Below, in pieces: positions 1-24,713 of a DNA stretch of 27,424 nt. Source of the DNA: a virus; the IMG/VR virus record IMGVR_UViG_3300050119_000079, positions 1-27,424 of that record. One strand, given 5' to 3'. The translations under genes and the position numbers were made by a program. Position 1 is the first letter of the stretch; the number at the start of each line of letters is the position of its first letter. The notes beneath the pieces are model-generated. The model saw nothing but the letters and a program-made list of their open reading frames with translations, was not told where the DNA came from and made no database searches.

Positions 1-639
1 TTCTAGATTAATTACATTCGAGGAAGGCGTAGTGATCCCGACGGTTGCACCCGCAGATTGAAAAGTAACATTTGGTCCGCTCTGTGAGTTAATCTGAGCA
101 ATACCCGTCCCGCTTGGAGTACTGCATGTACCATTAAACTGGAGATATCCGCTTGTGCAACTTGTCCAAAGCGATACAACGTCGTTATAAGTTGGCGCAC
201 GCCATGCGGAGCCCGTCGAAGCTGCGAGACCGGCCGATGGATACGCAAGAGCCCCGCCAATCTGCGTCCAATACGCCGTTTGGCTCACGGGATTTTGATT
301 CAAATTGCTTGACTGGATGCTCATGTAAAGCTGTCCGACATACTGGACAACATTCCCGGCCGCATAACTCGTGCTATTGACCCAAGTCCCTTTGAACTGT
401 GAGCCAACGCCCGCAAATGCTGTATCGATCTTCTGAAAATTGTAATTAGTGATCGCTCCCCAATTATTTGCATATTGCGGAGGAGTTTGAATCAAAAGGC
501 CAATGTTGGGCGTTACTTGCTGTCCGGACGCAACGACCGCGGCCGCCAACCAAAGAACGATAAGTTTCTTCATTTTCCTGATCGCGCGTCTTGATCTCCA
601 GGCCGTCCTTCGTCTTCTTGAAACGATAAGTTTCTTCAT
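1..639 (-). CDS. Secreted tail-fibre-like protein, C-terminus cut by window edge
   Basis: The frame is open from 639 to the left edge (213 codons, no stop). An inner ATG at 573 gives a classical Sec signal peptide (MKKLIVLWLAAAVVASGQ). About residues 60-106 of that shorter form (FKGTW...YAAGNVVQY...YW) follow the pattern of the small aromatic-rich carbohydrate-binding modules (CBM5/12 type) found in phage tail fibres. The rest is Gly/Ser/Thr-rich, as in fibre shafts, with a Cys pair. I infer a receptor- or polysaccharide-binding accessory tail protein. The ATG at 639 overlaps the upstream stop (ATGA). Both ATGs carry the same AGGA ribosome site because the start region is duplicated, so the first 22 residues (Arg-rich) are an insertion. 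The 573 start gives the sensible signal peptide; the 639 start would bury it. Function confidence is moderate. Confidence 0.7.
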   Translation of the reverse strand, partial: MKKLIVSRRRRTAWRSRRAIRKMKKLIVLWLAAAVVASGQQVTPNIGLLIQTPPQYANNWGAITNYNFQKIDTAFAGVGSQFKGTWVNSTSYAAGNVVQYVGQLYMSIQSSNLNQNPVSQTAYWTQIGGALAYPSAGLAASTGSAWRAPTYNDVVSLWTSCTSGYLQFNGTCSTPSGTGIAQINSQSGPNVTFQSAGATVGITTPSSNVINLE

Positions 640-646
640 TTTCCTG
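556..646. repeat. 25-base direct repeat flanking a terS-derived fragment
   Basis: A 25-base sequence occurs at 556-580 and again at 622-646, 66 bases apart. Each copy contains the AGGA ribosome site and the ATG plus first codons (MKKLIV) of the tail gene. The segment between them (579-621) matches 5341-5383 inside terS at 42 of 43 positions, in the same orientation; the only difference is 601 versus 5363. The extra 66 bases keep the reading frame (22 codons). This looks like a duplication with templated filler. Confidence 0.9.
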
Positions 647-1325
647 TCACCACGCACGAAGCATTCATGAGCGTACCGCTTCCGCCCGTATTGCTCAAAA
701 GTTGAATGTTGGAAAGTCCGTCCTTTTCCGCTCCAACTGGACCCGGATTACCGCCCGGCCGATAAGTTGAGCAAGCGATGCTCGCCACGAAGCTCGTAAA
801 TGGATACGGTAAAGCATATACATCATAACTATTGTCATTCGGCAATGAAGAGATGTTTACATGATTAATAATCGTCCCATTGCTCAAGATCTCATAATAT
901 CCATTCGTCCCGGATGTAAGTGGCGTCGATGTGAGGCATGTTCCCGCGGTTGCTGCCGTCGCTCGTCCCCAAACGTCAAAGGTAATTGTCGTTGGACAGG
1001 CATACGCGGCCGGCCCAACTCCCGATTCATTCAAAGATACGACCGGAGCACCTGTTGTAGGAGTAACAGTAATGGGAGAAGTACCACTAACAGAACTAAT
1101 CGTTCCGCCAGTTGCACAGGCACTATCGAACTTTGAACCCGTCGAAGTGCAAAGTGCATAACCGCTCGTGCCAGCCGTGCCATTAAGCGTGTATCCACCC
1201 TGTGCATCAACGTTGTTAAAGAGCCCGTTGACGCGGCCAGCCGCCATACTTACAAGGCAGCACACAATAATGAGTGGGACGAGAGTAATCGGCTTCTTGA
1301 GCCAATTGCGAAGCTTATTCATCAT
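636..1325 (-). CDS. Membrane-anchored or secreted fibre-like protein
   Basis: 229 residues. The start is the ATG pair just before the end of the portal gene, with GAGG about ten bases upstream and an 11-base overlap with the portal gene. Residues 1-10 are basic, then PITLVPLIIVCCLVSMAAG forms a signal or anchor segment. The rest is a low-complexity Gly/Ser/Thr beta-rich region (SSVSGTSPITVTPTTGAPVVS), typical of phage fibre shafts, and a Cys-containing C-terminal domain. Cysteines come in pairs, suggesting disulfides formed outside the cytoplasm. Its stop overlaps the next gene's first ATG. No enzymatic motif is visible. It is most likely a fibre or surface-exposed accessory protein paired with the gene to its left; the family is not identified. 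Confidence 0.75.
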   Translation of the reverse strand: MMNKLRNWLKKPITLVPLIIVCCLVSMAAGRVNGLFNNVDAQGGYTLNGTAGTSGYALCTSTGSKFDSACATGGTISSVSGTSPITVTPTTGAPVVSLNESGVGPAAYACPTTITFDVWGRATAATAGTCLTSTPLTSGTNGYYEILSNGTIINHVNISSLPNDNSYDVYALPYPFTSFVASIACSTYRPGGNPGPVGAEKDGLSNIQLLSNTGGSGTLMNASCVVTGK

Positions 1326-2727
1326 TTGGGTTATCCTCTTCAACTTGAGTGCTCTCAATCGTAACCGAGAGATCCAATCCTTCATATCCGCTCTCTGGAT
1401 CTCGTGCGATGCGTTCGCGTTCTTCTTCGGGAGCAATTACCGCACGGTCGATATAAACGCCGGCCGATTCTGCATCGCTCTTCCGAATTTCCGACTTCTC
1501 TTTGGCGGTCATGGTCTCCAAGGGATTCCAGACATACGTGATATCCGGATCAATAGAGCCATAAAGCGAAAGTTGCATCAATTCGAGAGCGGTCTTAACG
1601 AGCGGACTCCAAAAAGCATTTTGCTGCGCATGAATCCATTGCGCACGAATCTTACGTTCGCCTTCGGAGACGTTCCCAAAGCCGCTGGGAGCTACGCCAA
1701 GAAGCTCCGTTGCTGGCGTACGACTTACGGTACACATTCCCTCTTGTGCCTGCGCCTGAAGCTCGTGGAGCCCGCCGAGCGGCGCGGAAAGGCTTTCCAA
1801 TGTCTCAGAATCCTTGTCGATAACGGCCGCGCTCTTGTTGCTCCGCAATGCATTGAACAAATCGACGCGCGCGAAGAGATCTCCGCCTGCATCGCCTTGT
1901 TGCAAGACTTGATCCATATGCGTACCCAAGACAATGATCGAATACATATTAATCATGTCCGATACTGCCGAGCGCGTGCGAAGCCAATTGTTTACATAAG
2001 GCTCTGCAAGCTGCGACATACTAATACCGGAGAAATTGAACGCCGGTTTAAGCATGTCGGGAACTTCGCGCGTCGTGATCGTCAGCAAGCGGGTTGCGTG
2101 TACTTCCTGTCCAAGCATCCACCAGCGCCGCGGCTTATAAAACCAAGGATCAAGCGGATCGAGTGCATTATATGTGACGGGACTTGTCCACATTGGCTCC
2201 ACATTAACGAGCCGGAACATTTGACCTTTACGAAGAGTGCGCCCCTTCTTGTCGAGAATGAACGGATCCGCACGATCATGATCTTCGATATCGATTACAA
2301 CTTGTCCGCGACCATAAAACGAGTCATGAATCGCCGCTTGTTGGACGATACCTTTCAAATTCAATTCGTCGCAGGCTTTGGTAAGCTCCGTAATCTTTTC
2401 CGCGTTGTTGTCTTTGTCCGTCGATGTGCTGCGAATCGTAATCCACTCGCGCGTAATCTCTGACGAGTAAGTATCCGCAAATGAGCGATACTCCGGCTTT
2501 ACCGCGAGCTGCGCCAAATATTGATATCCTGGAAAACCTTCGAAGAGATAATTTCCGCCAAAAAGAGCCGCCGCATAATCGTAACAAGCTGCAAACGGAC
2601 CATCCATTGCAAGAACAGGAGCACGCTTGCGCGCCGGTACGACTCCAGGGAACAACTCCGGTCGTTTGATTGGGAAACGTCTTGCTTGCGGCTCGTTGGC
2701 GCGGTCTATAACGCTTTGGCTGATCAT
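1315..2727 (-). CDS. Phage portal protein, DUF1073/HI1409 type
   Basis: 470 residues, the usual length for this family. The central motifs (YSSEITREW, IHDSFYGRGQVVIDIED, TRLLTI, ATELLGVAPSGFGNVSEGE, WNPLETMTAKEKSEIRKSDAES) fit the DUF1073 portal family (the Pfam entry shared with an Acb1-like N-terminal domain). Portals form the dodecameric ring at one capsid vertex, through which the terminase pumps DNA and to which the tail attaches. Position between terL and the tail-like genes supports this. The C-terminus is acidic (VEEDNPNDE) and its TAA overlaps the next gene's start region. No strong ribosome site precedes the ATG, so translation is probably coupled to the small gene upstream, which ends 16 bases earlier. 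Confidence 0.9.
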   Translation of the reverse strand: MISQSVIDRANEPQARRFPIKRPELFPGVVPARKRAPVLAMDGPFAACYDYAAALFGGNYLFEGFPGYQYLAQLAVKPEYRSFADTYSSEITREWITIRSTSTDKDNNAEKITELTKACDELNLKGIVQQAAIHDSFYGRGQVVIDIEDHDRADPFILDKKGRTLRKGQMFRLVNVEPMWTSPVTYNALDPLDPWFYKPRRWWMLGQEVHATRLLTITTREVPDMLKPAFNFSGISMSQLAEPYVNNWLRTRSAVSDMINMYSIIVLGTHMDQVLQQGDAGGDLFARVDLFNALRSNKSAAVIDKDSETLESLSAPLGGLHELQAQAQEGMCTVSRTPATELLGVAPSGFGNVSEGERKIRAQWIHAQQNAFWSPLVKTALELMQLSLYGSIDPDITYVWNPLETMTAKEKSEIRKSDAESAGVYIDRAVIAPEEERERIARDPESGYEGLDLSVTIESTQVEEDNPNDE

Positions 2728-2743
2728 ACCGGTTTTATCATAC

Positions 2744-3007
2744 TTATATCGTCTTCCTAAAGCGAGTTTGGATTATTTCCTGCATCTCTCCAAGTCCCAA
2801 ATAATCATCGCAAAAGAACTCGCGGAGCCGAGTCCAACCGTTTTTGTAATCAAATGCTTCGCCGCACCAATCATGCGGGAAACTGGAGGGCAGGAGCGTA
2901 CTCACGTCTTCGCCGCGGTCGTTGTAATAATGGCCGCCAGCTCGACGGAGAAGGATGGGGCGGCTCGCTTCAAAAAGTTCTTCTTCACTACTTCTGTGAC
3001 GTGGCAT
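2744..3007 (-). CDS. Small hypothetical protein between terL and portal
   Basis: 87 residues starting MPRHRSSEEELFEASRP. The start is fixed by an AGGAG five bases upstream inside the end of the preceding 39-aa gene, which it overlaps by 20 bases; longer frames lack a comparable site. The N-terminus is basic then acidic; the C-terminal half (WTRLREFFCDDYLGLGEMQ) is predicted helical. I recognise no family and no catalytic motif. Its place in the packaging block suggests a head or packaging accessory, but that is inference from position only. Confidence 0.65.
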   Translation of the reverse strand: MPRHRSSEEELFEASRPILLRRAGGHYYNDRGEDVSTLLPSSFPHDWCGEAFDYKNGWTRLREFFCDDYLGLGEMQEIIQTRFRKTI

Positions 3008-3107
3008 TGATCTCCTGTGCGAGTGCCGGCTGTAAAGTGCCTCCATCGTCGCAACCGCGCGCCAAAAAGCCAATGAGAATAATAAGACCGTACTTTAAAT
3101 TTCTCAT
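2988..3107 (-). CDS. 39-residue protein with signal-like hydrophobic N-terminus
   Basis: The sequence begins MRNLKYGLIILIGFLARGC and ends in a short polar tail. The start is supported by GAGG eight bases upstream and by ATGA overlap with the preceding gene's stop. The basic n-region, hydrophobic core and a single Cys after LARG resemble a lipoprotein signal, though the lipobox is imperfect (Arg at -2). It could be a tiny lipoprotein or a single-pass membrane peptide. It lacks the proline-rich tail of Rz1-type spanins, so I do not call it one. Confidence 0.6.
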   Translation of the reverse strand: MRNLKYGLIILIGFLARGCDDGGTLQPALAQEINATSQK

Positions 3108-3271
3108 ATCAATTGCCTCAATCCCGCGCGCCGCATTTCCAGCAATGTTACAACACTCGCTTTGTCGCACGCTTCTCTAAATGTCTTGTAAAGAACTCCG
3201 TTCGATCCGTCTCCATCCCAACTATAAACTAGCCAACGGCCATCGTAACGGCTGATGCGAGCTTTATACAT
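3104..3271 (-). CDS. Small conserved-looking phage protein after terL
   Basis: 55 residues starting MYKARISRYDGRWLVYSW. The ATG overlaps the terL stop (ATGTATAA), so translation is probably coupled to terL; there is no strong ribosome site of its own. The pattern of a short basic strand, Trp/Tyr-rich beta hairpin, then a helix (TFREACDKASVVTLLEMRRAG) is common among small phage proteins of unknown role. A longer frame reaching 3385 would lie inside terL and is not supported. Function unknown. Confidence 0.6.
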   Translation of the reverse strand: MYKARISRYDGRWLVYSWDGDGSNGVLYKTFREACDKASVVTLLEMRRAGLRQLI

Positions 3272-4754
3272 TACCCGAAACACGGAATCCCCTTGCGGCC
3301 GCGATAGCTTCGGCCGAAATGTTGAGTCTACCCATAAGCGGATAGAGTTTACGCAACGCTTGAGATAAGGCATCAACTTGATCATCGTGCGCTGCGGCCG
3401 GAAAATGTGTTAACTCCGAAATAAAATGCTTGAGCGTACTCGTTGCAGCCGGTTGGAATACCGTACTAGCAATTCCCTCATGCGGCAAGAATATATTACG
3501 CGCTTCCCAAACCCAAGTGACAGCATATGCACGCGCGAGCTTTGATCCGTCCGGCTCGACGGCTTCGATACCTGGAATCTGTCCTTTGAGAAAATCGATG
3601 ATTGCGGGTCCGTTTGCCTTGTCTTCAATGAGGATTGTACGAATCTCCGGAAAGCGGTTTCGGATATCAATCACGGCTTGGCACGTCTCAGTAAAGCCCA
3701 TTCGCTTGAGCCATTGATAACGCAGATACGAGCGCGCGCCTTTCTTGCCCCATACCTGCATCGCAACGAAGTCCGTTCCATCCGTGTCTTTAAACGTCGC
3801 GTCGATACTGAGAATGGTCGTATCGAAGACGGGCGGGAGATCCTTCGGCAAATAATATTGAATGAATTCTTCTTTGAAGACATTTCCGCCGAGCGGCTTT
3901 GCGCTTTGCTGATAAATCGCGCTCCACCAATAATCACTGTAAAGCGCTTTGGTCTCGTAAAGCTTCTCCAGGCTGTGAAGCTGAGGAACAAGCGCGCCTT
4001 GAGCAAGCACGGGGTTATAACCAACTTCATCCGGCAAATTGATCGCAGGGAACGAAAGATGGGTCAAACGCCCGGAGCCGGCATATTGTTTCAAGATCCG
4101 GCCGGGAAGATCGTCTTCTGCCCATGATGTAGCCATGATGATTTGGCCGCTATTCTCGGAGAGTCGAGACGTGAAGACAGTTTGATACCAGTTCCAATGA
4201 TTCTCTTTCGTTACGGAAGATAAAGCTTCTTGCTGATCTTTTGTTGGGTCGTCAATGATGCCGATATCAATAGGCTTGCCCGTGAGTCCGCCGCCGATGC
4301 CCACTCCGACATACGAGCCCGTATCGTTGGGCGAATCAAATTCTTCCATCGTATGCCGCGCAAATTTATTCTTCTCCTTCGTGACCGGAAATAATCGCAA
4401 GTATTCATCGCTCGCCAAGGTGCGGCGCACGTCACGCGCCATCGTGCGTGCAAGATCGATTGCATAGCTCGCCGCGCCAATACGCCAGTCCGGAAATCTT
4501 CCCAAAATATACGCCGGCAATTTACGGGAGACGATCTCCGACTTTCCATGTTGTGGAGGAGCCTGGAAAACAATAATCGGTCGTTTGCCGGCTTGCATGT
4601 CTTCCAGGAATTTATCGAGCGCGAGACAGACGGGAATTGAGAATGAGTCGGAAGGCTTGTACTTTTTATTTGAATACAGAATGAACTCGTGCAACTGAGT
4701 TCGCGCTCGACGGCGTTCTAAGAGCTTCTGAGCGGCTTCTTCCCGTGTCATCAT
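3264..4754 (-). CDS. terL: Terminase large subunit (TerL)
   Basis: 496 residues. It powers DNA packaging into the prohead through the portal and cuts the genome concatemer. The N-terminal ATPase shows Walker A QAPPQHGKSE (residues 64-73) and Walker B IGIIDDPT (about 164-171), followed by a coupling segment (IIMATSWAEDDLPG). The C-terminal RNase H-like nuclease begins at LSIDATFKDTDGTDF (about 314-328) and contains ILIEDKANG and AHDDQVDALSQAL with the expected acidic residues. All main motifs are present and the length is typical. The ATG is doubled (MMTREE); no clear ribosome site is seen. TerS lies upstream but is separated by a rightward island at 4848-5193, so the two terminase genes are not directly adjacent. 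Confidence 0.95.
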   Translation of the reverse strand: MMTREEAAQKLLERRRARTQLHEFILYSNKKYKPSDSFSIPVCLALDKFLEDMQAGKRPIIVFQAPPQHGKSEIVSRKLPAYILGRFPDWRIGAASYAIDLARTMARDVRRTLASDEYLRLFPVTKEKNKFARHTMEEFDSPNDTGSYVGVGIGGGLTGKPIDIGIIDDPTKDQQEALSSVTKENHWNWYQTVFTSRLSENSGQIIMATSWAEDDLPGRILKQYAGSGRLTHLSFPAINLPDEVGYNPVLAQGALVPQLHSLEKLYETKALYSDYWWSAIYQQSAKPLGGNVFKEEFIQYYLPKDLPPVFDTTILSIDATFKDTDGTDFVAMQVWGKKGARSYLRYQWLKRMGFTETCQAVIDIRNRFPEIRTILIEDKANGPAIIDFLKGQIPGIEAVEPDGSKLARAYAVTWVWEARNIFLPHEGIASTVFQPAATSTLKHFISELTHFPAAAHDDQVDALSQALRKLYPLMGRLNISAEAIAAARGFRVSGNV

Positions 4755-4847
4755 GCGCTAAGAGTAACGCAGACAAGAGAAAGCCCCAAACGGCTTAACG
4801 CCGGATCTCCCGCCCGTCAAATACCCCAAAAGTTGTAAGCTGCGCTA

Positions 4848-4876
4848 TTGACAAGCTACTAGAAGCCTGTTATTCT
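4848..4876 (+). promoter_or_regulatory. Sigma70-type promoter P1 with shared TACTAG element
   Basis: TTGACA at 4848-4853, a 17-base spacer, then TATTCT at 4871-4876. The first 19 bases from TTGACA (TTGACAAGCTACTAGAAGC) are identical to the promoter at 7387 and close to that at 7837. The TACTAG block lies in the spacer, so it may be an operator. It drives the rightward micro-operon starting at 4964. Confidence 0.75.
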
Positions 4877-4880
4877 AGTC

Positions 4881-4946
4881 TTGCAGTCGGGGAGAGACGA
4901 TAGAAGCCGAGTCCGAAAGATTTGGAACGTTATCCCCGAACTGCAA
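4881..4946 (+). ncRNA. Structured 5' leader with long stem
   Basis: TTGCAGTCGGGG at 4881-4892 pairs with CCCCGAACTGCAA at 4934-4946, giving about 12 base pairs with one bulge and an internal loop of about 41 bases. The predicted transcription start from P1 falls at the 5' foot of the stem, so the mRNA would begin as a hairpin. The stem ends before the ribosome site (AAAAGGAG) of the 4964 gene. It could stabilise the message, act as a regulatory leader, or be a small RNA; no known riboswitch class is recognised. Confidence 0.5.
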
Positions 4947-4963
4947 ATTGAAAAGGAGACAAC

Positions 4964-5113
4964 ATGCAAACCCTTCTCATCATCGCCGTAATCTTCTTCG
5001 TGATTGCTTTCCCGGTTTATGGTTTTCTCATGCGCTTTTCAGTGAGCCGGGAAGATCGCCGCAAACAGAAGCATTTTGATGGAGCCATCAAGCATACAGG
5101 GCGGTATCTGTGA
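4964..5113 (+). CDS. 49-residue single-pass membrane protein
   Basis: The protein starts MQTLLIIAVIFFVIAFPVYG, continues FLMRFSVSREDRRKQKHF and ends in a polar tail. The start has a strong AAAAGGAG site seven bases upstream. One transmembrane segment (about residues 3-23) is followed by a basic cytoplasmic tail, suggesting an N-out, C-in orientation. It is transcribed opposite to terL and terS from its own promoter. Small phage membrane proteins of this size serve as holins, antiholins, exclusion factors or inner-membrane host modulators; nothing in the sequence decides between these. The stop is overlapped by the next start (GTGA). Confidence 0.75.
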   Translation: MQTLLIIAVIFFVIAFPVYGFLMRFSVSREDRRKQKHFDGAIKHTGRYL

Positions 5114-5193
5114 ATCCCCGCCCATACATCATTCCCCTTCGCTATTGGCTCGTGTTCGCAGCCGGGATGCTGGCAGGTATATTGCTCCCGTGA
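5110..5193 (+). CDS. 27-residue membrane microprotein, antisense to the end of terS
   Basis: A GTG start overlaps the previous stop (GTGA) and has AGGG about eight bases upstream. The product is MNPRPYIIPLRYW followed by LVFAAGMLAGILLP: a short basic or aromatic head and one hydrophobic segment. The last 52 bases overlap the terS coding end on the other strand. The coupling, ribosome site and clean membrane profile argue that it is real; the small size and antisense overlap argue for caution. Function unknown. It may act with the 49-aa protein. Confidence 0.45.
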   Translation: MNPRPYIIPLRYWLVFAAGMLAGILLP

Positions 5194-5813
5194 CCGGCTG
5201 CGATAGCAGCAAGCTCATCATCACTCAAATCATCTGCCGTTAGATTGGCGAGCGAAATGGGCTTACCGCCCGGTCCGCTCAACTCGCGCCGCTCGACGCT
5301 CATCCCCAAATAAGCCGAAAGATTCTTAAGCGCCGCGTCTTGATCGCGCGTCTTGATCTCCAAGCCGTCCTTCGTCTTCTTGACACCGGCAAAGAGCTTC
5401 CGACCCCGGGAGTTCTTGAAAATCGTTACAACCTGCCCTTGACCCATACAGAGCGCGCAACCTGGATTCGGCTCGTCATATTCGAGACCGGAAGGCCAGC
5501 ATTGCGAGCATGGCTTATTGCGCGTCTCCATCAAATCGTTCGGATCTTCTTCGACGATCTCACGCCATTTGGAAAGTATCCATTGCGGAGTAATCGAAGC
5601 GGCCGCAGCGCAGTCTGCCATGTGACGATTGATCGCATTTTCAATTTCAAGATTCTTTAATAATTCATGACCGATTTGTCCGGACGTTTCGGGAGAATAG
5701 CCCGCACGGATCGCCGCTTGCGTGGCGTTGTAATCCACACAATATTCGATGGCGAAGCGCGTTTGGCGGGCATTGAGCGACATACAAAGAGTTTGGCAAT
5801 ATCCCGCGCTCAT
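5142..5813 (-). CDS. terS: Terminase small subunit (TerS) with Cys-rich insert
   Basis: 223 residues. It recognises phage DNA and stimulates TerL to start packaging. Residues 11-45 (MSLNARQTRFAIEYCVDYNA, TQAAIRAGYSPET) match the helix-turn-helix N-terminus of the Terminase_2 family. After a central helical region, residues about 102-123 contain PCSQCW...GCALC, a CxxC/CxxC pair that could bind zinc and is unusual for TerS. The KKTKDGLEIKTRDQDAALK segment and the C-terminal AYLGM are typical. The first ATG at 5813 has only a weak GGAA ribosome site; the ATG at 5783 (residue 11) begins at the conserved domain but has none. A 43-base stretch at 5341-5383 is copied into the tail gene near 600. Confidence 0.9.
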   Translation of the reverse strand: MSAGYCQTLCMSLNARQTRFAIEYCVDYNATQAAIRAGYSPETSGQIGHELLKNLEIENAINRHMADCAAAASITPQWILSKWREIVEEDPNDLMETRNKPCSQCWPSGLEYDEPNPGCALCMGQGQVVTIFKNSRGRKLFAGVKKTKDGLEIKTRDQDAALKNLSAYLGMSVERRELSGPGGKPISLANLTADDLSDDELAAIAAGHGSNIPASIPAANTSQ

Positions 5814-6079
5814 GTCAAATATTCCACAAATCGACCAAAAGACAATCTAAGTACCATTTTATACAGTACTATCATCAGCGCTCTACTATAAACCACCCCA
5901 TAAAAAAAAGAGAAGAATAGGTTTTTACAAAAAGGGCTATTAAGTAGTATACTAATTAGAAAGGGAGAAAAAGGGAAAAGTACAATCGTCTCTTTTTTTC
6001 CCCCAGTAGTATAGAGTGGTAAGCCGATGAAAAGTTGTCAAAGATTGACATTCATTTCTAAATACGATACTATTCGGGA
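5814..6079. promoter_or_regulatory. AT-rich divergent control region
   Basis: This 266-base gap separates terS (leftward) from the 6080 gene (rightward). It is rich in A and T runs. TACTAT/ATAGTA-type motifs recur at 5867-5872, 5884-5890, inside the 10-base palindrome TAGTATACTA at 5945-5954, at 6007-6013 and at 6068-6073. AGTAGTATA occurs twice (5943-5951, 6005-6013). A purine-rich stretch (5961-5980) faces a T/C-rich one (5990-6004) and could pair imperfectly. I see no coding frame worth calling. It is likely to hold promoters for both directions and repressor sites. Confidence 0.5.
6045..6073 (+). promoter_or_regulatory. Promoter P4, places transcription start at the ATG
   Basis: TTGACA at 6045-6050, a 17-base spacer, and TACTAT at 6068-6073. 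Seven bases after the -10 is 6080, the A of the ATG of the next gene, so the message would be leaderless unless a later start is used. Confidence 0.6.
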
Positions 6080-6685
6080 ATGCAGACCATTATCAGTCGC
6101 AATGAAGCTGAAAGAATGAACCTTAAGTTCTATTTCAGCAATCACTTCTGCCACAACGGCCATAACACAATTCGCTACGTCAAGAGCGGTGAATGTCTTC
6201 AATGTCTGAAGGAAAAGAAACCGCCCTTGAGTGAAGAAGAAAAGAAATATGAGGCATTGAGTCGCAAGGAGGCCGCACGCAGAGGAGTTGAGTTTTATCT
6301 CAGCAATTATTTCTGCCGTAATGCACACAATAGAATTCGCTACGTCAAGAATGCACGATGCGTTCAATGCGTAGAGGATGAGAAACCTAAACCGACCGAA
6401 GAAGAAATGAAAGCGTTAGGTCGTGACGAAGCCTTGAATCGCTATGAAGCCGCTCAAGGGGGATTTAAATTTTATCTCAGCCAGCATTTTTGCCGTAATA
6501 GACACAATAGAATTCGCTACGTGAGCAGTACTCAATGCGTTCAATGTGTAGAGAATCGGAAATCTTTTACGGACCGAGACAAAGCACTTCGTCTAGAACT
6601 TCAAAGACTTCGAAAACGTTTAAAAGAAATACAAGCAGCGGAGAGAAAATTACAAGCAGAGGAGAGAAAATGGAAAAGGAAATAA
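6080..6685 (+). CDS. Protein with three tandem Cys/His zinc motifs
   Basis: 201 residues. Three copies of one module (about residues 7-50, 60-105, 120-165) share the pattern EA...G..FY.S..FC.N.HN.IRYV....C.QC. Each has Cys-x3-His and Cys-x2-Cys ligand sets, the signature of the small treble-clef-like motif seen at the N-terminus of many phage HNH or endonuclease VII-like proteins. A charged, coiled-coil C-terminus follows (LRLELQRLRKRLKEIQAAER). No HNH catalytic residues are present, so I infer nucleic-acid or protein binding rather than cleavage. Promoter P4 makes the first ATG leaderless; an ATG at 6116 with weak GAAAG is the alternative. The 3' end overlaps the next gene, which carries a fourth copy. 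Confidence 0.75.
   Translation: MQTIISRNEAERMNLKFYFSNHFCHNGHNTIRYVKSGECLQCLKEKKPPLSEEEKKYEALSRKEAARRGVEFYLSNYFCRNAHNRIRYVKNARCVQCVEDEKPKPTEEEMKALGRDEALNRYEAAQGGFKFYLSQHFCRNRHNRIRYVSSTQCVQCVENRKSFTDRDKALRLELQRLRKRLKEIQAAERKLQAEERKWKRK
6116..6558 (+). repeat. Three tandem gene-internal repeats, about 165 and 177 bases apart
   Basis: The units coding the Cys/His modules are also similar in DNA. ACACAATAGAATTCGCTACG is shared exactly at 6325 and 6502, and ACACAATTCGCTACGT occurs at 6165. Copies two and three are the closest, suggesting the most recent duplication. Spacing of 55 then 59 codons reflects small indels in the linkers. Confidence 0.8.
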
Positions 6686-7383
6686 TTAGCCACGAAGAAG
6701 CATCCGACAAAGGCATGACCCGATATTTTACCGGCCGTGTTTGCCGAAACAATCATATTGCCGACCGCTATGTGAATGGCGGGGCCTGCGTCGAATGTAT
6801 TAATGGCGACAAGATCATCACGGATGCGCAGCGTGAAACTCGCGTTGCAGAACGACAAGCAAAAATCGCTAACGAAACCGCCCGCATTCAGCTCGCCAAG
6901 GAACGTCTTAAACAACGGCAGGAAGAGCAAGCGCAACGGCTCCAAATGGCCGCAGAACGGTTAGAACTCAAGAAGCAAGCCGCATCCATCACCGATGACA
7001 ACCGCGCCGTACGGGGCGTCTCAACGGTCGCAAAGAGCGAGTTTATTAAGATCAAGCTTCGTGTACAACCAAATGATGTGACGGCTATGAGAGCATTCAT
7101 TCATGGACTCGCAATCATGCGGATTCCAGGTATCCGCCTTATCGACGTTTGCCCGGATATAAATTTTAAAGGTTACTCGGTCCATACCTTCTTAGTGCAT
7201 CCGGAAGATCGAGATTTAGCTTTCAAAGCGCAAGATGACTTTGAGAGAACAAACATGGCTCGCAAAGAAGAACGCCGCCTTGATATCGAACGTGTGACTC
7301 TCAATTTGGAGATCGAGCGCCGGAAACAACAGGAAGACAACAACGGAGATCCTGGCGACACTCTAGAGAATTTGATGCGATAA
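6670..7383 (+). CDS. Cys/His zinc-motif protein with coiled coil and C-terminal domain
   Basis: 237 residues. The ATG at 6670 has GAGGAGAG just upstream and overlaps the previous gene by 16 bases; longer upstream frames are not supported. Residues 15-45 (GMTRYFTGRVCRNNHIADRY, then CVECING) are a fourth and more canonical copy of the Cys/His motif. Residues 55-110 form a highly charged coiled coil (RQAKIANETARIQLAKERL). Residues 120-190 make an alpha/beta domain (FIKIKLRVQPNDVTAMRAF...GIRLIDVCPDINF), and a second charged helix ends the chain. I recognise no enzyme motif. A DNA- or RNA-associated scaffold is possible. The codons for QQED...GDPGD near the end resemble the end of the next gene. 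Confidence 0.75.
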   Translation: MEKEIISHEEASDKGMTRYFTGRVCRNNHIADRYVNGGACVECINGDKIITDAQRETRVAERQAKIANETARIQLAKERLKQRQEEQAQRLQMAAERLELKKQAASITDDNRAVRGVSTVAKSEFIKIKLRVQPNDVTAMRAFIHGLAIMRIPGIRLIDVCPDINFKGYSVHTFLVHPEDRDLAFKAQDDFERTNMARKEERRLDIERVTLNLEIERRKQQEDNNGDPGDTLENLMR

Positions 7384-7386
7384 TCC

Positions 7387-7415
7387 TTGACAAGCTACTA
7401 GAAGCATGTCATCAT
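7387..7415 (+). promoter_or_regulatory. Promoter P2 with shared TACTAG element
   Basis: TTGACA at 7387-7392, a 17-base spacer, CATCAT at 7410-7415. Its first 19 bases equal P1. A second TACTAG lies at 7415-7420. It starts the small-gene cassette at 7438. Confidence 0.65.
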
Positions 7416-7836: not shown

Positions 7837-7865
7837 TTGACAAGATACTAGTAAGATTGCATCAT
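7837..7865 (+). promoter_or_regulatory. Promoter P3 with shared TACTAG element
   Basis: TTGACA at 7837-7842, a 17-base spacer, CATCAT at 7860-7865, with TACTAG in the spacer at the same place as in P1 and P2. It starts the unit headed by the Imm-like gene at 7884. Confidence 0.65.
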
Positions 7866-8586: not shown

Positions 8587-8822
8587 GCAAGTATCAATCC
8601 TATTGGGATCTCGCCACAATTCCCGATTCTCAATGGGCATCGGAGAACGGGCGCCGGCAACGCACCAAGGCTCCCGCCCGCACATATGTCAAGCTCGCTC
8701 CATGCAAGGGATGCAAGCGCAACCTGACGGCAACCGAACGGCGCGGAGTATGCCCAAACTGTGGCACGCGTAACAGGGCACAATCTATTTGCGGCCAAAC
8801 GCAGCAACCGCCGAGCAATTGA
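8583..8822 (+). CDS. 79-residue zinc-ribbon protein
   Basis: Start MSKYQSYWDLATIPDSQW, with GAGG nine bases upstream and ATGA overlap. The C-terminal half holds CKGCKRN and CPNCGTRN about 17 residues apart, a classic zinc ribbon, on a basic background (RRQRTK). It ends the rightward cassette and overlaps the leftward primase gene by 38 bases at their 3' ends. A long inverted repeat follows 20 bases later. Function unknown; nucleic-acid binding is likely. Confidence 0.7.
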   Translation: MSKYQSYWDLATIPDSQWASENGRRQRTKAPARTYVKLAPCKGCKRNLTATERRGVCPNCGTRNRAQSICGQTQQPPSN

Positions 8823-11133
8823 TATTTGCCTTCTCATAAGCCTTCCCCACTGCTTCCGGATCGGTAATTTGAAGCAGTGGGGAATCCTTCTTAACGAAGA
8901 GCTTTGGGCGGGCGCCTTCAGGCAGTACGGACGAATGAGCGCGGCCGCCCTGCAACGCCGGATGGAGAATATATCCCATCACTTCGAGCATGTCCTTGCG
9001 CTTCGTGTACGAGATCTTTCGGGCGAGCTGCATTTGCTGTAGCATCCTATCCAACCAAATTGAAGAAATGAAGCCGCCATTAAAGCCCTGAAAGCCTTGC
9101 GCGATACATTCGGCAATCTCTTGTTCAACGCCGCCCGTGCTCGCTTCAATTGCTTGAGCGTTCGTGCTCGTCATTGGCGCACGTTGGCATTCGCCGGCAG
9201 GATTGTACTCTGCGGGAATAGCGAACGTATGGAGGAATTCAGAAACGATTGCGTAACCGTCAGCTTTGAGCCATTCATAGAGATTCGGGAAATAATCGCC
9301 CGTGAGTCCATCCCGTGCAAGATCATCAACGCTCTGTTGAGCAGAAAAGAAAACGGCAAACCGCCGATCATTAGCAGTTTTCTTGATAGCGTCTTTATGA
9401 TTCGAATTGAACATAAAATTGCCACAGATATCCGTACTTACTTGATCAATACCTTTTGCTTCGATCTCTAATCCATCGCCGCCGGTAATCATCGGTTTCA
9501 ATTCTTCGATCACTTCGCGCCTGGAGTCCGGAACGTAAATATCTTCCACTGCATAGAATACTTTTCCGACCATCCAAGCGTTAAATTCTTTTGCGAGTTT
9601 GGAAGCTTTGGGCCAGTGGACATAACGTTTACCAACCGCTTCGGCAACACATCTCGTAAAGAGCGTTTTTCCGTTTCCTTCAACTCCTTGAAGTAACGGG
9701 GCCCATTGAAATTTGATGCCCTGATGTTGCACACAAGCGGCCATGTAACTCAACAAGATTAAGCGGTCGCGGTCATCGGGAAGCACGATAGCTAGATGAT
9801 TCAAGAACGGGCTCGCATCGCCCTGGATCCGCGCAACTTCAATCGGCATGTACGTATTGACGAACGAGAGCCCGTTGCGCTCGACGATAGCGCCGGCCGC
9901 AAGATCCGGACGGAAACACATCCCGTCAACCTTGGGACACACGAAACAATGGTTTTGCGTAAAAGCTTCCCATGCGTCCCGTGTTTGCTTTGCGTTTGCT
10001 TCGTCTAGCACAAACATATGAGCGCCAAAATGAACTTTGAATTGCTCTGGCTTGAGCAAAGTACCGCCACGAATGAGCACGCGGTGTGACTCGCGGATAT
10101 AGATGCATCCTTTGAAATGCTCCATTTGCTCGATTGGGGAGAGCTCTTGCCATCCTGTCTTTACCGTAGGACGTATAAAGCCATCGGTCGCGGGCTCCTC
10201 CGGAGCGTCCGGTGTCTTGTCCTGCAATACTTCATGCTGACGTCCTACGGCTCCCCGAATCGTGCGGGGAAGGTAGTCCTCGCGCTCCCATTTGTCACGC
10301 TTGAGCGCGCTCAAGAGCATAAGAGAACGTATCCGCTCGCAGTTCTTTCCTGTCCAGAAGGCGAGATGCTGTGCGAGAGCGGCATCCGCGGCCGATTCGT
10401 CATAAGCGCGGCCGTTTGGATCGGGATAATTCGTCCCTAGAACGGCTGTGTTCGCTGTCCACAAATCCGCGAAGGAAGCTTTGCCGGCGAAGACCGAAGC
10501 CGTTGAGCGCGATTGCATCGCGCGGCGGATGAGATCCGCATCATCCGTGGAACCGTTCCATTCTTCGACCGGCTCGTTTGTCCAACCTATGTCGCTAGTG
10601 TCCGCATCGGGCGGAAAGAACTTCGCAACCAATCCAGGTAAGAGTGCAGATGCATCATATGATGCATCTCCTTGTGCGCCGAGACCATTCAAAGCAACAA
10701 AGCGGCCGGCATGATAGAACTCCAAACCAAGCGCTTTATTGGTGCATCCATGTGCGGGCGGCTTGCCGGTCCCGAAGATATGAAGCCCGCGGCCGGATCG
10801 GGAAACTTCGATAGCACAACCGGCAAGCGCTCCGCAGAGCTGCAAAGCGAGTGGACTCCAGGTATTGTCTGCTTGCAGGCAATTGTCTATGTCAAGGAAA
10901 AAGAACGGGTCGTGCTCCGTAAAAACGAAGCCAACGCCATATTCTATGCCCCACCGTGCTGCTGCCGCTTCCGCAGTCGCAACGTCCGTCCAAATCTCCG
11001 GATCGTGAGCATTTCTAATCTTGCCGTCGATATAACTGACAGGAAGTTTATCGCTCTTATGTTCGCCGCGCGGGACAAGTCTATATAAGATCCATTGCCG
11101 ATAATCGGCAAATGCATTTAATGAGGGATGCAC
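8785..11133 (-). CDS. Primase-polymerase/helicase fusion, NrS-1 type
   Basis: 782 residues with a GTG start and AGGATGGGG upstream. The N-terminal prim-pol domain shows the metal motif FFFLDIDN (residues 77-84), SRSGRGLHIFG (111-121) and HAGRFVALNG (141-150). A helical middle follows. The C-terminal SF3/DUF5906-type helicase shows Walker A VEGNGKTLF (484-492), Walker B VFYAVEDIY (525-533) and the sensor segment GNFMFNSNHKDAIK. This architecture matches the bifunctional NrS-1-like replication proteins, which make primers, can extend DNA and unwind it. Since a family B polymerase is also present, this one probably primes and unwinds. The gene contains a 22-base palindrome (10648-10669) and, near its 3' end, a perfect 14-base inverted repeat. 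Confidence 0.88.
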   Translation of the reverse strand: MHPSLNAFADYRQWILYRLVPRGEHKSDKLPVSYIDGKIRNAHDPEIWTDVATAEAAAARWGIEYGVGFVFTEHDPFFFLDIDNCLQADNTWSPLALQLCGALAGCAIEVSRSGRGLHIFGTGKPPAHGCTNKALGLEFYHAGRFVALNGLGAQGDASYDASALLPGLVAKFFPPDADTSDIGWTNEPVEEWNGSTDDADLIRRAMQSRSTASVFAGKASFADLWTANTAVLGTNYPDPNGRAYDESAADAALAQHLAFWTGKNCERIRSLMLLSALKRDKWEREDYLPRTIRGAVGRQHEVLQDKTPDAPEEPATDGFIRPTVKTGWQELSPIEQMEHFKGCIYIRESHRVLIRGGTLLKPEQFKVHFGAHMFVLDEANAKQTRDAWEAFTQNHCFVCPKVDGMCFRPDLAAGAIVERNGLSFVNTYMPIEVARIQGDASPFLNHLAIVLPDDRDRLILLSYMAACVQHQGIKFQWAPLLQGVEGNGKTLFTRCVAEAVGKRYVHWPKASKLAKEFNAWMVGKVFYAVEDIYVPDSRREVIEELKPMITGGDGLEIEAKGIDQVSTDICGNFMFNSNHKDAIKKTANDRRFAVFFSAQQSVDDLARDGLTGDYFPNLYEWLKADGYAIVSEFLHTFAIPAEYNPAGECQRAPMTSTNAQAIEASTGGVEQEIAECIAQGFQGFNGGFISSIWLDRMLQQMQLARKISYTKRKDMLEVMGYILHPALQGGRAHSSVLPEGARPKLFVKKDSPLLQITDPEAVGKAYEKANINCSAVAAFGRK
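8843..8884 (+). terminator. 14-base perfect inverted repeat, candidate terminator
   Basis: TTCCCCACTGCTTC (8843-8856) and GAAGCAGTGGGGAA (8871-8884) are perfect complements with a 14-base loop. It lies 20 bases after the last rightward cassette gene and is followed by TCCTTCTT, weakly U-rich in the rightward transcript. It sits inside the 3' coding end of the leftward primase gene. Confidence 0.5.
10648..10669. repeat. 22-base perfect palindrome
   Basis: AGATGCATCAT at 10648-10658 is followed directly by its exact complement ATGATGCATCT at 10659-10669, with no loop. It lies in codons for GDASYDAS in the prim-pol part of the helicase gene. Such uninterrupted symmetry is typical of a dimer-binding site, but function is unknown. 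Confidence 0.85.
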
Positions 11134-11238: not shown

Positions 11239-11553
11239 TTACCCCACTATTGCATTAACCGCTTTGAGCCGCAACTCCGGCGAGATGGTGAGATTCACTC
11301 CGGATGCGAGAGCCTGCCCAACGATGGGCGCATATTCGTGTTTGATCGCATAGCGCAAGATACGACGCTTGAGCCCGATAATGTCTCCGAGATATAGAGA
11401 AACGAGCCCTTCAGAACATTTAGCGCGCTTGGCAATCTTGGCACGAGTAAGAGCACTCCAGCCGCCAAGCTCACAGCACAGTTCGACCGCGGCATTGAAG
11501 ATCTTCAATTTGCGCTCCCCAGGCAGCAATCGTTCGCGTTTGTAAATTGTCAT
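11239..11553 (-). CDS. TetR-like helix-turn-helix protein
   Basis: 104 residues. Residues 15-60 (KIFNAAVELCCELG, LTRAKIAKRAKCSEGLVSLY) match the TetR N-terminal DNA-binding domain: helix 1, then a helix-turn-helix with the typical A-x2-A-x-CSEG-x-V-x2-Y pattern. The usual ligand-binding C-terminal domain is reduced to about 45 residues, so it is a truncated or minimal form. The ATG overlaps the stop of the PAPS-reductase-like gene within the 22-base repeat. It may regulate the adjacent primase gene; the palindrome GTGTATACAC at 11227-11236, just past its stop, is a possible site. Confidence 0.65.
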   Translation of the reverse strand: MTIYKRERLLPGERKLKIFNAAVELCCELGGWSALTRAKIAKRAKCSEGLVSLYLGDIIGLKRRILRYAIKHEYAPIVGQALASGVNLTISPELRLKAVNAIVG

Positions 11554-11568
11554 AAGCTTCCTTCTCCC
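11547..11568. repeat. 22-base direct repeat, copy at TetR-like start
   Basis: Identical to 12424-12445. On the coding strand it reads GGGAGAAGGAAGCTTATGAC plus AA, holding the last codons and stop of one gene and the ribosome site and ATG of the next. Confidence 0.9.
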
Positions 11569-12299
11569 TCACGGCGGCAAATAACACCACATTCGATATC
11601 TTCTTCTGGTTTTGTATCACAATAATCTGCTGGCAATTCGTCAAGAAACAATCTAACATCCAAAATTTTTACTAACTTGCATCCAATTTTTCGAGACTGA
11701 GTTGCGCGAGCTTCAAAAACTTCTGGAAAGTATTTCCTAACTCGATTCCAATATGCCGGAGAAGATGATTTTACGCATCCGATGCAGTTATTGTTTTTAA
11801 ATCCTAACTTATACATCATCGGAAGATCAATTTTGAAATATTCTAAGATGTGATAACAGAGAGCTTTTGTAATGTCATGATCTCGAAGATTCCATTCCAG
11901 TTCTAAATCTTGATTGGCTTCTTCAAAAAGACGAATGCGATTCTTTTCGTCTGCCGTCAATCCGAAGATATGAAGATCGTTTGGAAGTTGGAAATCTAAC
12001 CGAGGAACCTTTTTCATTTCACGACTACAAGGAGCCCAGTTAATACCACTCATGTATTGTGCTTTTTCCCAAACTTCCGTGACATTTTTAAACTTTTTCG
12101 AAGCGATAATTTCAATTGGATGTTCAATCCAGGATTCGATTTTTTTCAAAAATCTAAGATTGTCGGAATGCTCTTCAGCAAGTGTATCGCAGTAAACAAC
12201 TTTGACGTTTTTGTAAGCGCGGACGGCCATGTATGCAGAAACCGCGGAAGCGGCTCCGCACGAAAACCAAGCAACAACACGACCGTCCATCGAATCCAT
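11550..12299 (-). CDS. PAPS-reductase/PP-loop family protein, degenerate loop
   Basis: 249 residues from the ATG with GAGAGAG upstream; in-frame starts at 12350 (coupled) or residue MDGRVV are alternatives. Its N-terminus, VVAWFSCGAASAVSAYMAVR, is the altered PP-loop typical of phage PAPS-reductase-like proteins (SCGAAS in place of SGGKDS). Further motifs are NWAPCSREMKKVPRL, FGLTADEKNRIRLFEE, and NNCIGCVKSSSPAYW with a CxxC. Relatives activate substrates with ATP or handle sulfur, but the substrate is unknown. The gene is more AT-rich than its neighbours and is bracketed by 22-base direct repeats, suggesting recent insertion between the nuclease and TetR-like genes. Activity is uncertain because of the altered loop. 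Confidence 0.75.
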   Translation of the reverse strand: MDSMDGRVVAWFSCGAASAVSAYMAVRAYKNVKVVYCDTLAEEHSDNLRFLKKIESWIEHPIEIIASKKFKNVTEVWEKAQYMSGINWAPCSREMKKVPRLDFQLPNDLHIFGLTADEKNRIRLFEEANQDLELEWNLRDHDITKALCYHILEYFKIDLPMMYKLGFKNNNCIGCVKSSSPAYWNRVRKYFPEVFEARATQSRKIGCKLVKILDVRLFLDELPADYCDTKPEEDIECGVICRREGEGSL

Positions 12300-12349
12300 T
12301 ATTGCTCTCTCTCTCTTCGTGATCCAAATTGATTCTTCTGGAGTAACCA

Positions 12350-12430
12350 TCAACGCTGAATGTTGGAATGTTGAATCGAGCCAGATAGATACAAAGAAAT
12401 TTGATAGGTTGAGACTGTGATACTTGTCAT
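12350..12430 (-). CDS. Possible 26-residue leader peptide
   Basis: The ATG lies in the 22-base repeat, with GGAGAAGG upstream, overlapping the nuclease stop. The frame reads MTSITVSTYQISLYLSGS and ends at TGATG, overlapping a possible start of the PAPS-reductase-like gene. It may only be filler left by the insertion that replaced the original TetR-like reading frame here. Low confidence. Confidence 0.25.
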   Translation of the reverse strand: MTSITVSTYQISLYLSGSIQHSNIQR

Positions 12431-18771: not shown

Positions 18772-19467
18772 GTGCTAAAAATCAACTCTGATGAATTGTC
18801 CGCAATGAACACCGCGCAACGTGAATTTGTTGCAGGCTTCATTATGAATTATCCCGCAACGCCTGGCATTGCCGAGCCCATTCCGGAACCAGCCGCGCCT
18901 GGCATTGCCGAGCCCATTCCGGAACCGGCCGCAGTCTTTGCACCCCTTCCCGTTCCGCCTGTGCCGCAACTCGTACCGGCTCCGCCTGTTCCTATCGTTG
19001 CGGCAACCGGACCGCAGTTGATAATTCCGCCCACTGTCGAGATTGAAACTCCGAAGCTTGATAAATCCGGCTTGCCTTGGGATGAGCGCATTCATTCCAG
19101 TACCAAGGGCTTTACCGGCAATGGCCTTTGGAGACGCAAACGCGGCGTATCGGATAGCGATTATGATTACGTTACAGCGCAGCTTCACCAATTGATGAAC
19201 CTTCCCGATCCATTCCCTTCCGCGCCGGCTGTCCCCGTGGCAATCCCGGCTGTAACCGAAGCCATTGATAATCGCAAAGCGTACATTGATCTTGTGGGTA
19301 AATGCGGCGCGGCTATTGCTGCCGGCAAGCTCACGAAAGAAGACGTAAACAATGCTTGTGCGACAGCAACGGGCGGAGTTGCGGCAACACTTCCGATGCT
19401 TGGAAATCGGCCGGAGTTTGTTCCGTCCGTTGCTCAAATCATTACAACGCTTGTCGAGAGCCGGTAA
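18772..19467 (+). CDS. Conserved phage protein with Pro-rich repeat region
   Basis: 231 residues from a GTG with AAGGAG eleven bases upstream; an inner ATG at residue 12 has none. Residues 1-25 are polar, 26-90 are Pro/Ala-rich, including the tandem 12-residue repeat PGIAEPIPEPAA, and 95-145 hold the conserved core LPWDERIHSSTKG, NGLWRRKRGVSDSDYD. A short helical C-terminal region follows. The LPWD-x-RIH-S and W-R-x-RRG motifs recur in phage replication-region proteins of unknown role. It is the first gene of the rightward replication operon, so a replication-accessory role is inferred. Confidence 0.75.
   Translation: MLKINSDELSAMNTAQREFVAGFIMNYPATPGIAEPIPEPAAPGIAEPIPEPAAVFAPLPVPPVPQLVPAPPVPIVAATGPQLIIPPTVEIETPKLDKSGLPWDERIHSSTKGFTGNGLWRRKRGVSDSDYDYVTAQLHQLMNLPDPFPSAPAVPVAIPAVTEAIDNRKAYIDLVGKCGAAIAAGKLTKEDVNNACATATGGVAATLPMLGNRPEFVPSVAQIITTLVESR
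18862..18933 (+). repeat. 36-base tandem repeat, two copies
   Basis: Copies at 18862-18897 and 18898-18933 differ at two positions only. They code the duplicated PGIAEPIPEPAA block of the Pro-rich linker. Confidence 0.9.
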
Positions 19468-19471
19468 GCCG

Positions 19472-20590
19472 ATGCACTCGTTGTTATCGCCGTCCGGTGC
19501 TTCCGCTTGGAGCCAATGTGCGCTTTGGCCTACGATGAATGCCCGCTTCCCTCAAGAAGCAAGCGCGTATGCCATTGAAGGAACAGGCGCCCATTGGGTA
19601 GCTTGGGAGATTATCGCAATGCGTGCGATCTCCGAAGGTGTATCAACTCCAAACGGATTGATTGTTACTGGCGAAATGCTAGACGGCGGGGAATTGATTG
19701 CGGAAGTAGTTGAACAGCGCATTCGCCGCGGGCTTGAACTCCACATCGAAGAGCCCGTTAGAATTGCCCAAATATCGGCGGACTGTTGCGGTACGCCGGA
19801 TCTTTGGGCATATGATGCAGCGCGAGCGCATATTGAAATCATAGATTACAAATTCGGTCATAGATTTGTCGATGAATACTTTAACTTACAAGGCATTTCC
19901 TACTTGCTTGGCATTCTCGCCAAGCTCGTCCACGAGGGGGCCATTCTCGGAAAGCCCGAAGCGGTTTCCGTCTCCTTCACTATCGTACAACCGCGCTGCT
20001 ATCATCGCGGATCGCCTGTCCGGACGCATTCCTATAGAGTTTCTGACATTATTCCTTACATACAAAAGCTCCAAGAAGCTGCACGCCTTGCGTTGCTTCC
20101 AGATCCGGCCGGGACAGTCAATGAGCATTGCACCGACTGTCCCGGCCGTCACACATGCTCCGCACTTCAAAAAGCAGCATATAGCGGCGCAGAATTCAGC
20201 ATGACGCAGCAAGCACTTGAGATCTCTCCAGAAGCCGCCGCCCTTGAATTGCGCATGATGGAAAGAGCGCTTCAAGCTCTCAATGCACGCGTAGAAGGTT
20301 TGCGCGAGCTAGTGACCGCTAATCTAAAGGCCGGGAAGTCCGTTCCGTTTTATCGACTCGAAGAGAGCCGCGGACGATTGGCTTGGAATATCCCCAACGA
20401 TCAAATTATTGGGATTGGGCAAATCTTCGGAAAAGATCTTTCGAAGCCTGGAGTATTAACGCCGGCGCAGGCGAAGAAAGAAGGTATTGACGAAGCGGTT
20501 ATTAAGCAATACACTTCGAATCCATCCGGCAGTTTAAAACTGGTAGCAATTAACACCGCCAATGTGCGGCGAGTCTTTCAAGGAGAATAA
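19472..20590 (+). CDS. DUF2800 family nuclease (Cas4/RecB-like)
   Basis: 372 residues from the ATG five bases after the previous stop. The N-terminal MHSLLSPSGASAWSQCALWP, EGTGAHWVAWE, the acidic core CCGTPDLWAYD and IEIIDYKFGHRFVDEYFNLQ carry the Asp and D-x-K of a PD-(D/E)xK nuclease. CTDCPGRHTCSAL and the first Cys provide Cys ligands as in Cas4-like iron-sulfur nucleases. The family lies beside SSB and polymerase in many phages and likely acts in recombination. The C-terminal part (LTPAQAKKEGIDEAVIKQY) is the helical tail of the family. A 14-base inverted repeat lies within the gene (20106-20148). Confidence 0.85.
   Translation: MHSLLSPSGASAWSQCALWPTMNARFPQEASAYAIEGTGAHWVAWEIIAMRAISEGVSTPNGLIVTGEMLDGGELIAEVVEQRIRRGLELHIEEPVRIAQISADCCGTPDLWAYDAARAHIEIIDYKFGHRFVDEYFNLQGISYLLGILAKLVHEGAILGKPEAVSVSFTIVQPRCYHRGSPVRTHSYRVSDIIPYIQKLQEAARLALLPDPAGTVNEHCTDCPGRHTCSALQKAAYSGAEFSMTQQALEISPEAAALELRMMERALQALNARVEGLRELVTANLKAGKSVPFYRLEESRGRLAWNIPNDQIIGIGQIFGKDLSKPGVLTPAQAKKEGIDEAVIKQYTSNPSGSLKLVAINTANVRRVFQGE
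20106..20148. repeat. 14-base perfect inverted repeat inside DUF2800 gene
   Basis: CGGCCGGGACAGTC (20106-20119) and GACTGTCCCGGCCG (20135-20148) are perfect complements with a 15-base loop. No T-run follows. It lies in the codons for the Cys cluster. Confidence 0.85.
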
Positions 20591-20591
20591 A

Positions 20592-21479
20592 TTGACAACG
20601 CAATCAAATCGTATCAACCTGACAAGCCCTGTCGGGAGATTGGTACAAGGAGATCTTTACCGTGGATACACGAAGGATGCGGAAGGAAAAGATCTCGTGT
20701 ACAAGAACGGCGCAGATGCCGGCAAAGCGCGCGCGAACTTCTTTTTTGCGCTCGCCATTCCCAAGAATGCGGGCGAAACGCATTGGACAAATACTGAATG
20801 GGGCGCGAAGATTCTTCAAATCGGCGCGGCTGCATTCCCTGCCATGTATCAAAATCCAGCCTTCTCTTGGAAGGTCGAAGACGGCGATTCAAACGTTCCC
20901 AACAAGAAGGGAAAAGTTCCATCAGCGAATACCGGATGGAAAGGAAACTGGATTATCAAGTTTTCAACATCCATCGCCCCAAAAGTGTTCCGCGCAGAAG
21001 GCTCAGCTTTCTTCGAGACTGCCGATGTGAAATGCGGTTATTACGTCCAAGTGAACTTTGACGTTCAAGGAAATGAAAGCTCTCAGAATCCCGGCGTTTA
21101 TATCAATCCGACAATGGTTTGTTTCCGCGCCCCTGGAGAAGAGATCTCCTTCGGTCCGAACGTCGAAGACGCCGGTTTCGGTGCGGCTCCGCTGCCCGCT
21201 GGAGTGACCGCCGCTCCGCTTCCGGTTGCGTTGCCAATCCCTTCGTTGCCGGTCGTGGCTCCGGCGATTCCCGCGCTCAATGTCCAACCCAATCCGGGCT
21301 TCCTCACTGTCCCTTCTGTGGCAGTTCCCTCTGTGCCTTTACCCGCGGCGGTCCCTGCGACGATTCCTTCCCTTTCTAAGCGGATGACAGCGAAGGCAAA
21401 CGGCGCGACGTACGAAACGTTCATCGCCGCGAACTGGACCGATGCACAGATGATCGCGCAAGGATACCTGGAAGCGTAG
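20592..21479 (+). CDS. ssDNA-binding protein-like, DUF2815 type
   Basis: 295 residues from a TTG with AAGGAG seven bases upstream (an earlier frame start has no site). Residues 1-185 form the OB-fold-like body: LTSPVGRLVQGDLYRGYTKD, ANFFFALAIPKN, GNWIIKFSTSIAPKVF, VKCGYYVQVNFDVQGNES and NPGVYINPTMVCF, a pattern of the phage DUF2815/gp2.5-like single-strand DNA-binding family. Then comes a Pro/Ala-rich linker of about 70 residues and a C-terminal module ATYETFIAANWTDAQMIAQG, a repeated element seen in other phage proteins and probably a partner-binding tail. It coats single-stranded DNA during replication and recombination. Confidence 0.8.
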   Translation: MTTQSNRINLTSPVGRLVQGDLYRGYTKDAEGKDLVYKNGADAGKARANFFFALAIPKNAGETHWTNTEWGAKILQIGAAAFPAMYQNPAFSWKVEDGDSNVPNKKGKVPSANTGWKGNWIIKFSTSIAPKVFRAEGSAFFETADVKCGYYVQVNFDVQGNESSQNPGVYINPTMVCFRAPGEEISFGPNVEDAGFGAAPLPAGVTAAPLPVALPIPSLPVVAPAIPALNVQPNPGFLTVPSVAVPSVPLPAAVPATIPSLSKRMTAKANGATYETFIAANWTDAQMIAQGYLEA

Positions 21480-24442: not shown

Positions 24443-24713
24443 AGGTGAAACTTTCGATGCTCAAAAAATGGCACAACGCAACGGAAGCCCTGTCCAAGAT
24501 CGTTTGGAGAAGTATTTAAATACTCTTCCAAAAGATGAAATCTTCTTGAGCGAAGATATTGCGGATTCTTTGAAAATGTCTGTCAATGTTATTAAGTCAC
24601 AAATGCCAAGATATCATCGTTTCGATCCGTATATACTCGTTGTGAGCGGGCGCAGATTTTGGGGATCTCCGGCCGCAATCAAGCAACTTAAAAAGGAAAA
24701 CAATGAAAATTAA
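24420..24713 (+). CDS. Small winged-helix-like protein
   Basis: 97 residues starting MTMPLKFKGETFDAQKM; ATG at 24426 is also possible, and neither has a strong site, so translation is probably coupled to the polymerase end. The middle (DEIFLSEDIADSLKMSVNVIK) reads as a helix-turn-helix followed by a beta wing (YILVVSGRRFWGSP). It is likely a DNA-binding accessory of the replication operon. No specific family recognised. Confidence 0.65.
   Translation: MTMPLKFKGETFDAQKMAQRNGSPVQDRLEKYLNTLPKDEIFLSEDIADSLKMSVNVIKSQMPRYHRFDPYILVVSGRRFWGSPAAIKQLKKENNEN

Follow-up and report, generated by a model that had tools for sequence, protein, structure and literature searches.

Organization of the Locus

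The window, meaning the whole stretch of 27,424 nucleotides that was analysed (IMG/VR virus record IMGVR_UViG_3300050119_000079), begins within a tail-like gene whose start holds a short copy of a piece of another gene. The genes around this insert lie on the minus strand, and the features are listed in Table 1.

Table 1. Coordinates of the features of the insert and its donor in the window.
Feature	Position	Strand	Remarks
Insert-bearing gene, 5' part	1..639	-	Tail-fibre-like (a guess) or exported protein
Gene-start repeat, copy 2	556..580	-	ATG2 at 573-571; opens the signal-peptide-like N-terminus MKKLIVLWLAAAVVASGQQ
terS-derived 43 nt	579..621	-	Last 2 nt, CA, common with the second repeat copy (microhomology); 42/43 to the window terS, 43/43 to L003 and L005
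Gene-start repeat, copy 1, CAGGAAAATGAAGAAACTTATCGTT (5' in transcription)	622..646	-	ATG1 at 639-637; overlaps the upstream TGA at 638-636 as ATGA
Upstream gene, 229 aa, hydrophobic N-terminus	636..1325	-	Stop overlaps ATG1 (ATGA 639-636)
terS, terminase small subunit	5142..5813	-	PF03592, phrog_51
Donor segment inside terS	5341..5383	-	Codes KKTKDGLEIKTRDQ, within the best-conserved motif of the TerS family
Patch of 8 synonymous differences, window vs. L003 terS	5363..5442	-	Accounts for the one mismatch of the insert

The two copies of CAGGAAAATGAAGAAACTTATCGTT form an exact direct repeat of 25 nt with an offset of 66 (646-622 and 580-556 on the minus strand). Between them, 621-579 reads TCAAGAAGACGAAGGACGGCCTGGAGATCAAGACGCGCGATCA, a near-copy of terS 5383-5341. 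The single mismatch falls at terS 5363, the two segments have the same orientation and an offset of 4762, and the ungapped match family extends to 576-624/5338-5386 with 94% identity over 49 nt. The reading frame of the insert differs from that of terS (SRRRRTAWRSRRAI vs. VKKTKDGLEIKTRDQ). On the coding strand the allele consists of GGTGACAGGAAAATGAAGAAACTTATCGTT, followed by TCAAG...GATCA and then by GGAAAATGAAG, with a microhomology of 0 nt at the first junction and 2 nt (CA) at the second. When the window was shuffled 50 times (Markov-1), the longest exact direct repeat reached 18 nt (mean 14.3), so both the 25-nt repeat and the terS repeat are beyond chance. A preliminary description of this DNA had noted a gene start of 25 bases present twice, 66 apart, and between the copies 43 bases that match terS with one mismatch, in the same orientation and another frame, from a source about 4.8 kb away; all of this was reproduced here.

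A mobile element with target-site duplication was also considered and rejected. Terminal inverted repeats, a transposase of its own and multiple copies were not found, and the only ectopic copy of the segment is terS itself.

The terS Donor

The donor is intact in its place, as terS is open and is recognised by PF03592. The terS genes of two related contigs, L003 and L005, are identical to the insert at all 43 positions. Compared with L003, the window terS carries the eight synonymous changes of the patch given in Table 1 and also differs at its very start. The position at which the insert mismatches is the first of the eight. Since L003 and L005 match the insert completely, the mismatch arose later in the window terS, and the insert retains the letters of the donor. 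The window terS was probably altered by short-patch recombination with a diverged relative.

Differences among the near-identical contigs are in general clustered in short patches (5363-5442; 1521-2098 and 4549-4783 between L005 and the window) with near-identical sequence between them, which reflects short-patch recombination or consensus mixing. Next to terS, 5821-6786 is unmatched in L003, and 6080-7383 contains an array of three 138-nt repeats, 65-77% alike, which code CRNxHNxxRYV-type motifs.

Packaging recognition sites are located in or near terS in several phages. It is thus conceivable that 579-621 is a functional second copy of such a site, or of another terS DNA site, selected in the tail-like gene, and the segment is indeed the best-conserved terS DNA in distant relatives. 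When codon conservation was compared among six distant TerS genes, identical codons were found at 38 of the 72 conserved residues in the segment and at 148 of 360 elsewhere (Fisher p = 0.09), so that conservation at third positions was not clearly over background. A second copy was not seen in the loci of the distant relatives. The conservation of the donor segment is mainly that of the protein motif, and we consider the duplication of a packaging site highly improbable.

Occurrence in Related Contigs

IMG/VR was searched with TerS and with the tail-like protein as queries. The same allele was found in L003 (IMGVR_UViG_3300038456_000041; 99.7% to the window over 1-5820) and in L005 (IMGVR_UViG_3300045803_000039; 97.9% over 1-4792). 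The repeat and insert region is letter-for-letter equal in these three contigs, whose samples are possibly non-independent. Between L005 and the window there are 99 differences, which are clustered at 1521-2098 and 4549-4783, with one difference in 1-1520; L005 is therefore not a copy of the consensus of the window. An assembly chimera would be expected to have junctions private to one assembly, and here both junctions recur in two other contigs, one of them L005 with its 99 differences elsewhere. The contigs are metagenomic, and the mosaic patches between relatives could partly be consensus mixing; even so, a chimera is a very unlikely source of the allele.

Because L003 and L005 are nearly identical to the window around the insert, they say little on its age or on selection. 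No close relative with an empty site was found among the viral contigs or genome contigs, and no prophage or isolate relative with one was found for the tail-like protein in the genome contigs or in 50,697 phage records. The polarity of the event therefore rests on terS being a conserved gene and on the N-terminus of an outgroup. This outgroup is a homologue in L048, outside the insert-bearing group, which is 81% identical over residues 216-641 and has an unrelated, signal-like N-terminus directly at its ATGA start. As it has no 22-residue extension, the extension is not a family feature. In L019 the corresponding junction runs straight to ATGAAACGAA, as judged from about 10 nt of that gene. 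The preliminary description had proposed a comparison of the 66 bases with related phages and had named an ancestral intergenic sequence unrelated to terS as the finding that would speak against it. The comparison yielded identical junctions in two relatives, and none of the relatives examined shows an ancestral intergenic version of the segment.

When 66 sequences (541,532 bases) were scanned for direct repeats on either side of an ectopic copy, only this allele in its three contigs was returned, apart from low-complexity repeats in L027 and pairs that surround a promoter-like sequence present several times. In the window, three copies of a sequence like TTGACAAGCTACTAGAAGC are present at 4848-4873, 7387-7412 and 7837-7862, 69-100% alike, and they are probably a repeated phage promoter. 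In a pattern scan with the 17-mer AAGAAGACGAAGGACGG, the matches other than those in the two insert-bearing contigs fell in unrelated coding contexts.

The Tail-Like Gene and Its N-Terminal Extension

In L012 the tail-like gene has 874 codons from ATG1. The protein gave no match in Pfam or PDB (solved-structure) searches. For residues 675-840 of the query there is a match to one PHROG of unknown function, and a module around residues 62-127 of the window query resembles part of what appears to be a phage tail protein of 2116 aa in larger contigs. Homology thus lends weak support to the earlier label of a tail gene, and "tail-fibre-like" is our guess. Three consecutive genes between the portal and the head-morphogenesis gene (1-1325; L012:8633-9289) all start like signal peptides, one with a lipoprotein-like LTGC, which is unusual for virion genes.

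Included in the duplicated unit are the final bases of the upstream gene and the ATG with the next five codons. Since this unit holds the ATGA stop/start overlap together with the first six codons, both neighbouring genes stayed intact, the frame stayed open and the event survived. The added 66 bp can be read through in frame, and the event left two possible starts. Translation from ATG1 (A at 639) adds MKKLIVSRRRRTAWRSRRAIRK, which has 8 Arg and 3 Lys and agrees with the 22 Arg-rich residues described earlier. ATG1 is preceded by GGTGACAGGAAA with an anti-SD duplex of -7.2 kcal/mol, while ATG2 retains only CAGGAAA with a duplex of -4.3 kcal/mol. Given its original upstream context, its stronger Shine-Dalgarno sequence and its overlap with the upstream stop, ATG1 was judged the main start. 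Translation probably begins there, which would put MKKLIVSRRRRTAWRSRRAIRK ahead of the hydrophobic MKKLIVLWLAAAVVASGQQ.

It may be asked whether the Arg-rich 22-residue extension was selected because it changed the targeting of the protein, a reading that is compatible with a template switch as its origin. The extension is in frame and open, its start is favoured by the upstream context, and SRRAIRK before the hydrophobic stretch resembles a twin-arginine motif. This resemblance was judged by eye and carries little weight. Moreover, the frame is kept by a 1 in 3 chance, the contigs show no variation within the insert on which selection could be tested, and the L048 relative manages without the extension. 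We regard a selected change in targeting as improbable, and near-neutral persistence is taken as the default.

A Second Duplicated Junction

Another exact repeat, the 22-nt GGGAGAAGGAAGCTTATGACAA, is located at 12445-12424 and 11568-11547, each copy over an ATGA junction, and the two copies flank a PAPS-reductase-like gene at 11550-12353. Most relatives with the neighbouring endonuclease gene show the order endonuclease, HTH gene, primase and have no PAPS-reductase relative between the endonuclease and the HTH gene; in L004 and L053 the HTH gene directly follows the endonuclease. The PAPS-reductase gene looks like an insertion with junction duplication, similar to the terS event. What occupies this slot differs widely from relative to relative, and recombination at a junction that they share is therefore an alternative in this case.

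These two junction-duplicated insertions may mean no more than that an insertion among overlapping genes survives only when the junction is duplicated. On a bolder reading, a stop/start duplication of 22-25 nt could be a recurrent entry route into the tightly overlapping genes of this phage group that leaves the neighbours unbroken. Its products would include the 66-bp terS scrap and the 877-bp PAPS-reductase gene, and through the former the tail-like protein would have acquired a new N-terminus made from part of another gene read out of frame. We offer this generalisation speculatively and think it rather unlikely to hold.

Origin of the Insert

We consider it likely that the insert is a real, inherited templated insertion made by a template switch. 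The anatomy, the donor, the presence in three contigs and the in-frame product are observed, and the order of the jumps and the enzymes are inferred. In an ancestor phage, a nascent or broken strand would have come off its template after copying CAGGAAAATGAAGAAACTTATCGTT, where the tail-like gene starts. About 4.8 kb away it would have taken up 43 nt of terS in the same orientation (TCAAG...GATCA) before returning to the tail-like gene at CAGGAAAATG, 25 nt behind the exit point, by which 25 nt would be duplicated and 66 bp added. The simplest history would be one excursion with two jumps, or an equivalent annealing repair. The window genome codes a Gp2.5-like ssDNA-binding/annealing protein (20562-21479), two exonucleases (19352-20590 and 24703-25746), a DNA polymerase (22400-24442) and a primase (8785-11133), and this set would fit single-strand annealing as the enzymatic background.

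The preliminary description had suggested template switching during replication or recombination repair. The repeat, the ectopic 43 nt and the microhomology of 0 and 2 nt fit this suggestion, but they equally allow end joining, in which the overhangs of about 25 nt of a staggered double-strand break would be filled in and a short terS fragment captured. The same product is expected from it, one junction has 0 nt of microhomology, and the second event in the genome likewise shows a duplication (22 nt) at the insertion point. On the other hand, end joining requires a free fragment of 41-43 nt and an end-joining system, and a non-exhaustive look at the window genes revealed no Ku or ligase D. The two routes cannot be told apart by sequence alone; we hold end joining to be unlikely and retain the template switch as the preferred explanation.

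With the donor, the exit, the re-entry and the in-frame product all legible and common to three contigs, the terS insertion documents a natural templated insertion in an uncultivated phage with unusual clarity. It illustrates how a packaging gene, through a short scrap read out of frame, may supply a new N-terminus. Together with the PAPS-reductase case, it indicates that duplication of an ATGA junction lets insertions survive at overlapping genes.

Comparison with Known Systems

Short template switches have been described in which re-entry lies behind the exit point and a direct repeat is left as the signature (PMC7954356). The mutations described there are like the present one in their short ectopic copy, their two junctions, the re-entry behind the exit and the direct repeat. 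However, the models there concern ape genomes and reverse-complement copies of local sequence, whereas here a same-strand copy from 4.8 kb away is found in a phage.

In phages, switching is traced to Ripley 1982 and Schultz and Drake 2008, as cited in PMC8604942. The templated mutagenesis of T4 attributed there to Schultz and Drake 2008 is similar in that ectopic phage sequence templates a mutation. By its title that study concerns imperfect repeats, while the junctions described here have a homology of 0-2 nt and a whole segment of 43 nt was imported.

In E. coli, long-distance switching with little homology has been proposed (PMC3161906). In this MMBIR model a 3' end jumps to distant single-stranded DNA with little homology and leaves complex junctions, as would be the case here. 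The E. coli events span kilobases and concern amplification under starvation, but the present event comprises 66 bp. The terS insertion is thus a fresh example of an underlying principle that is already known.
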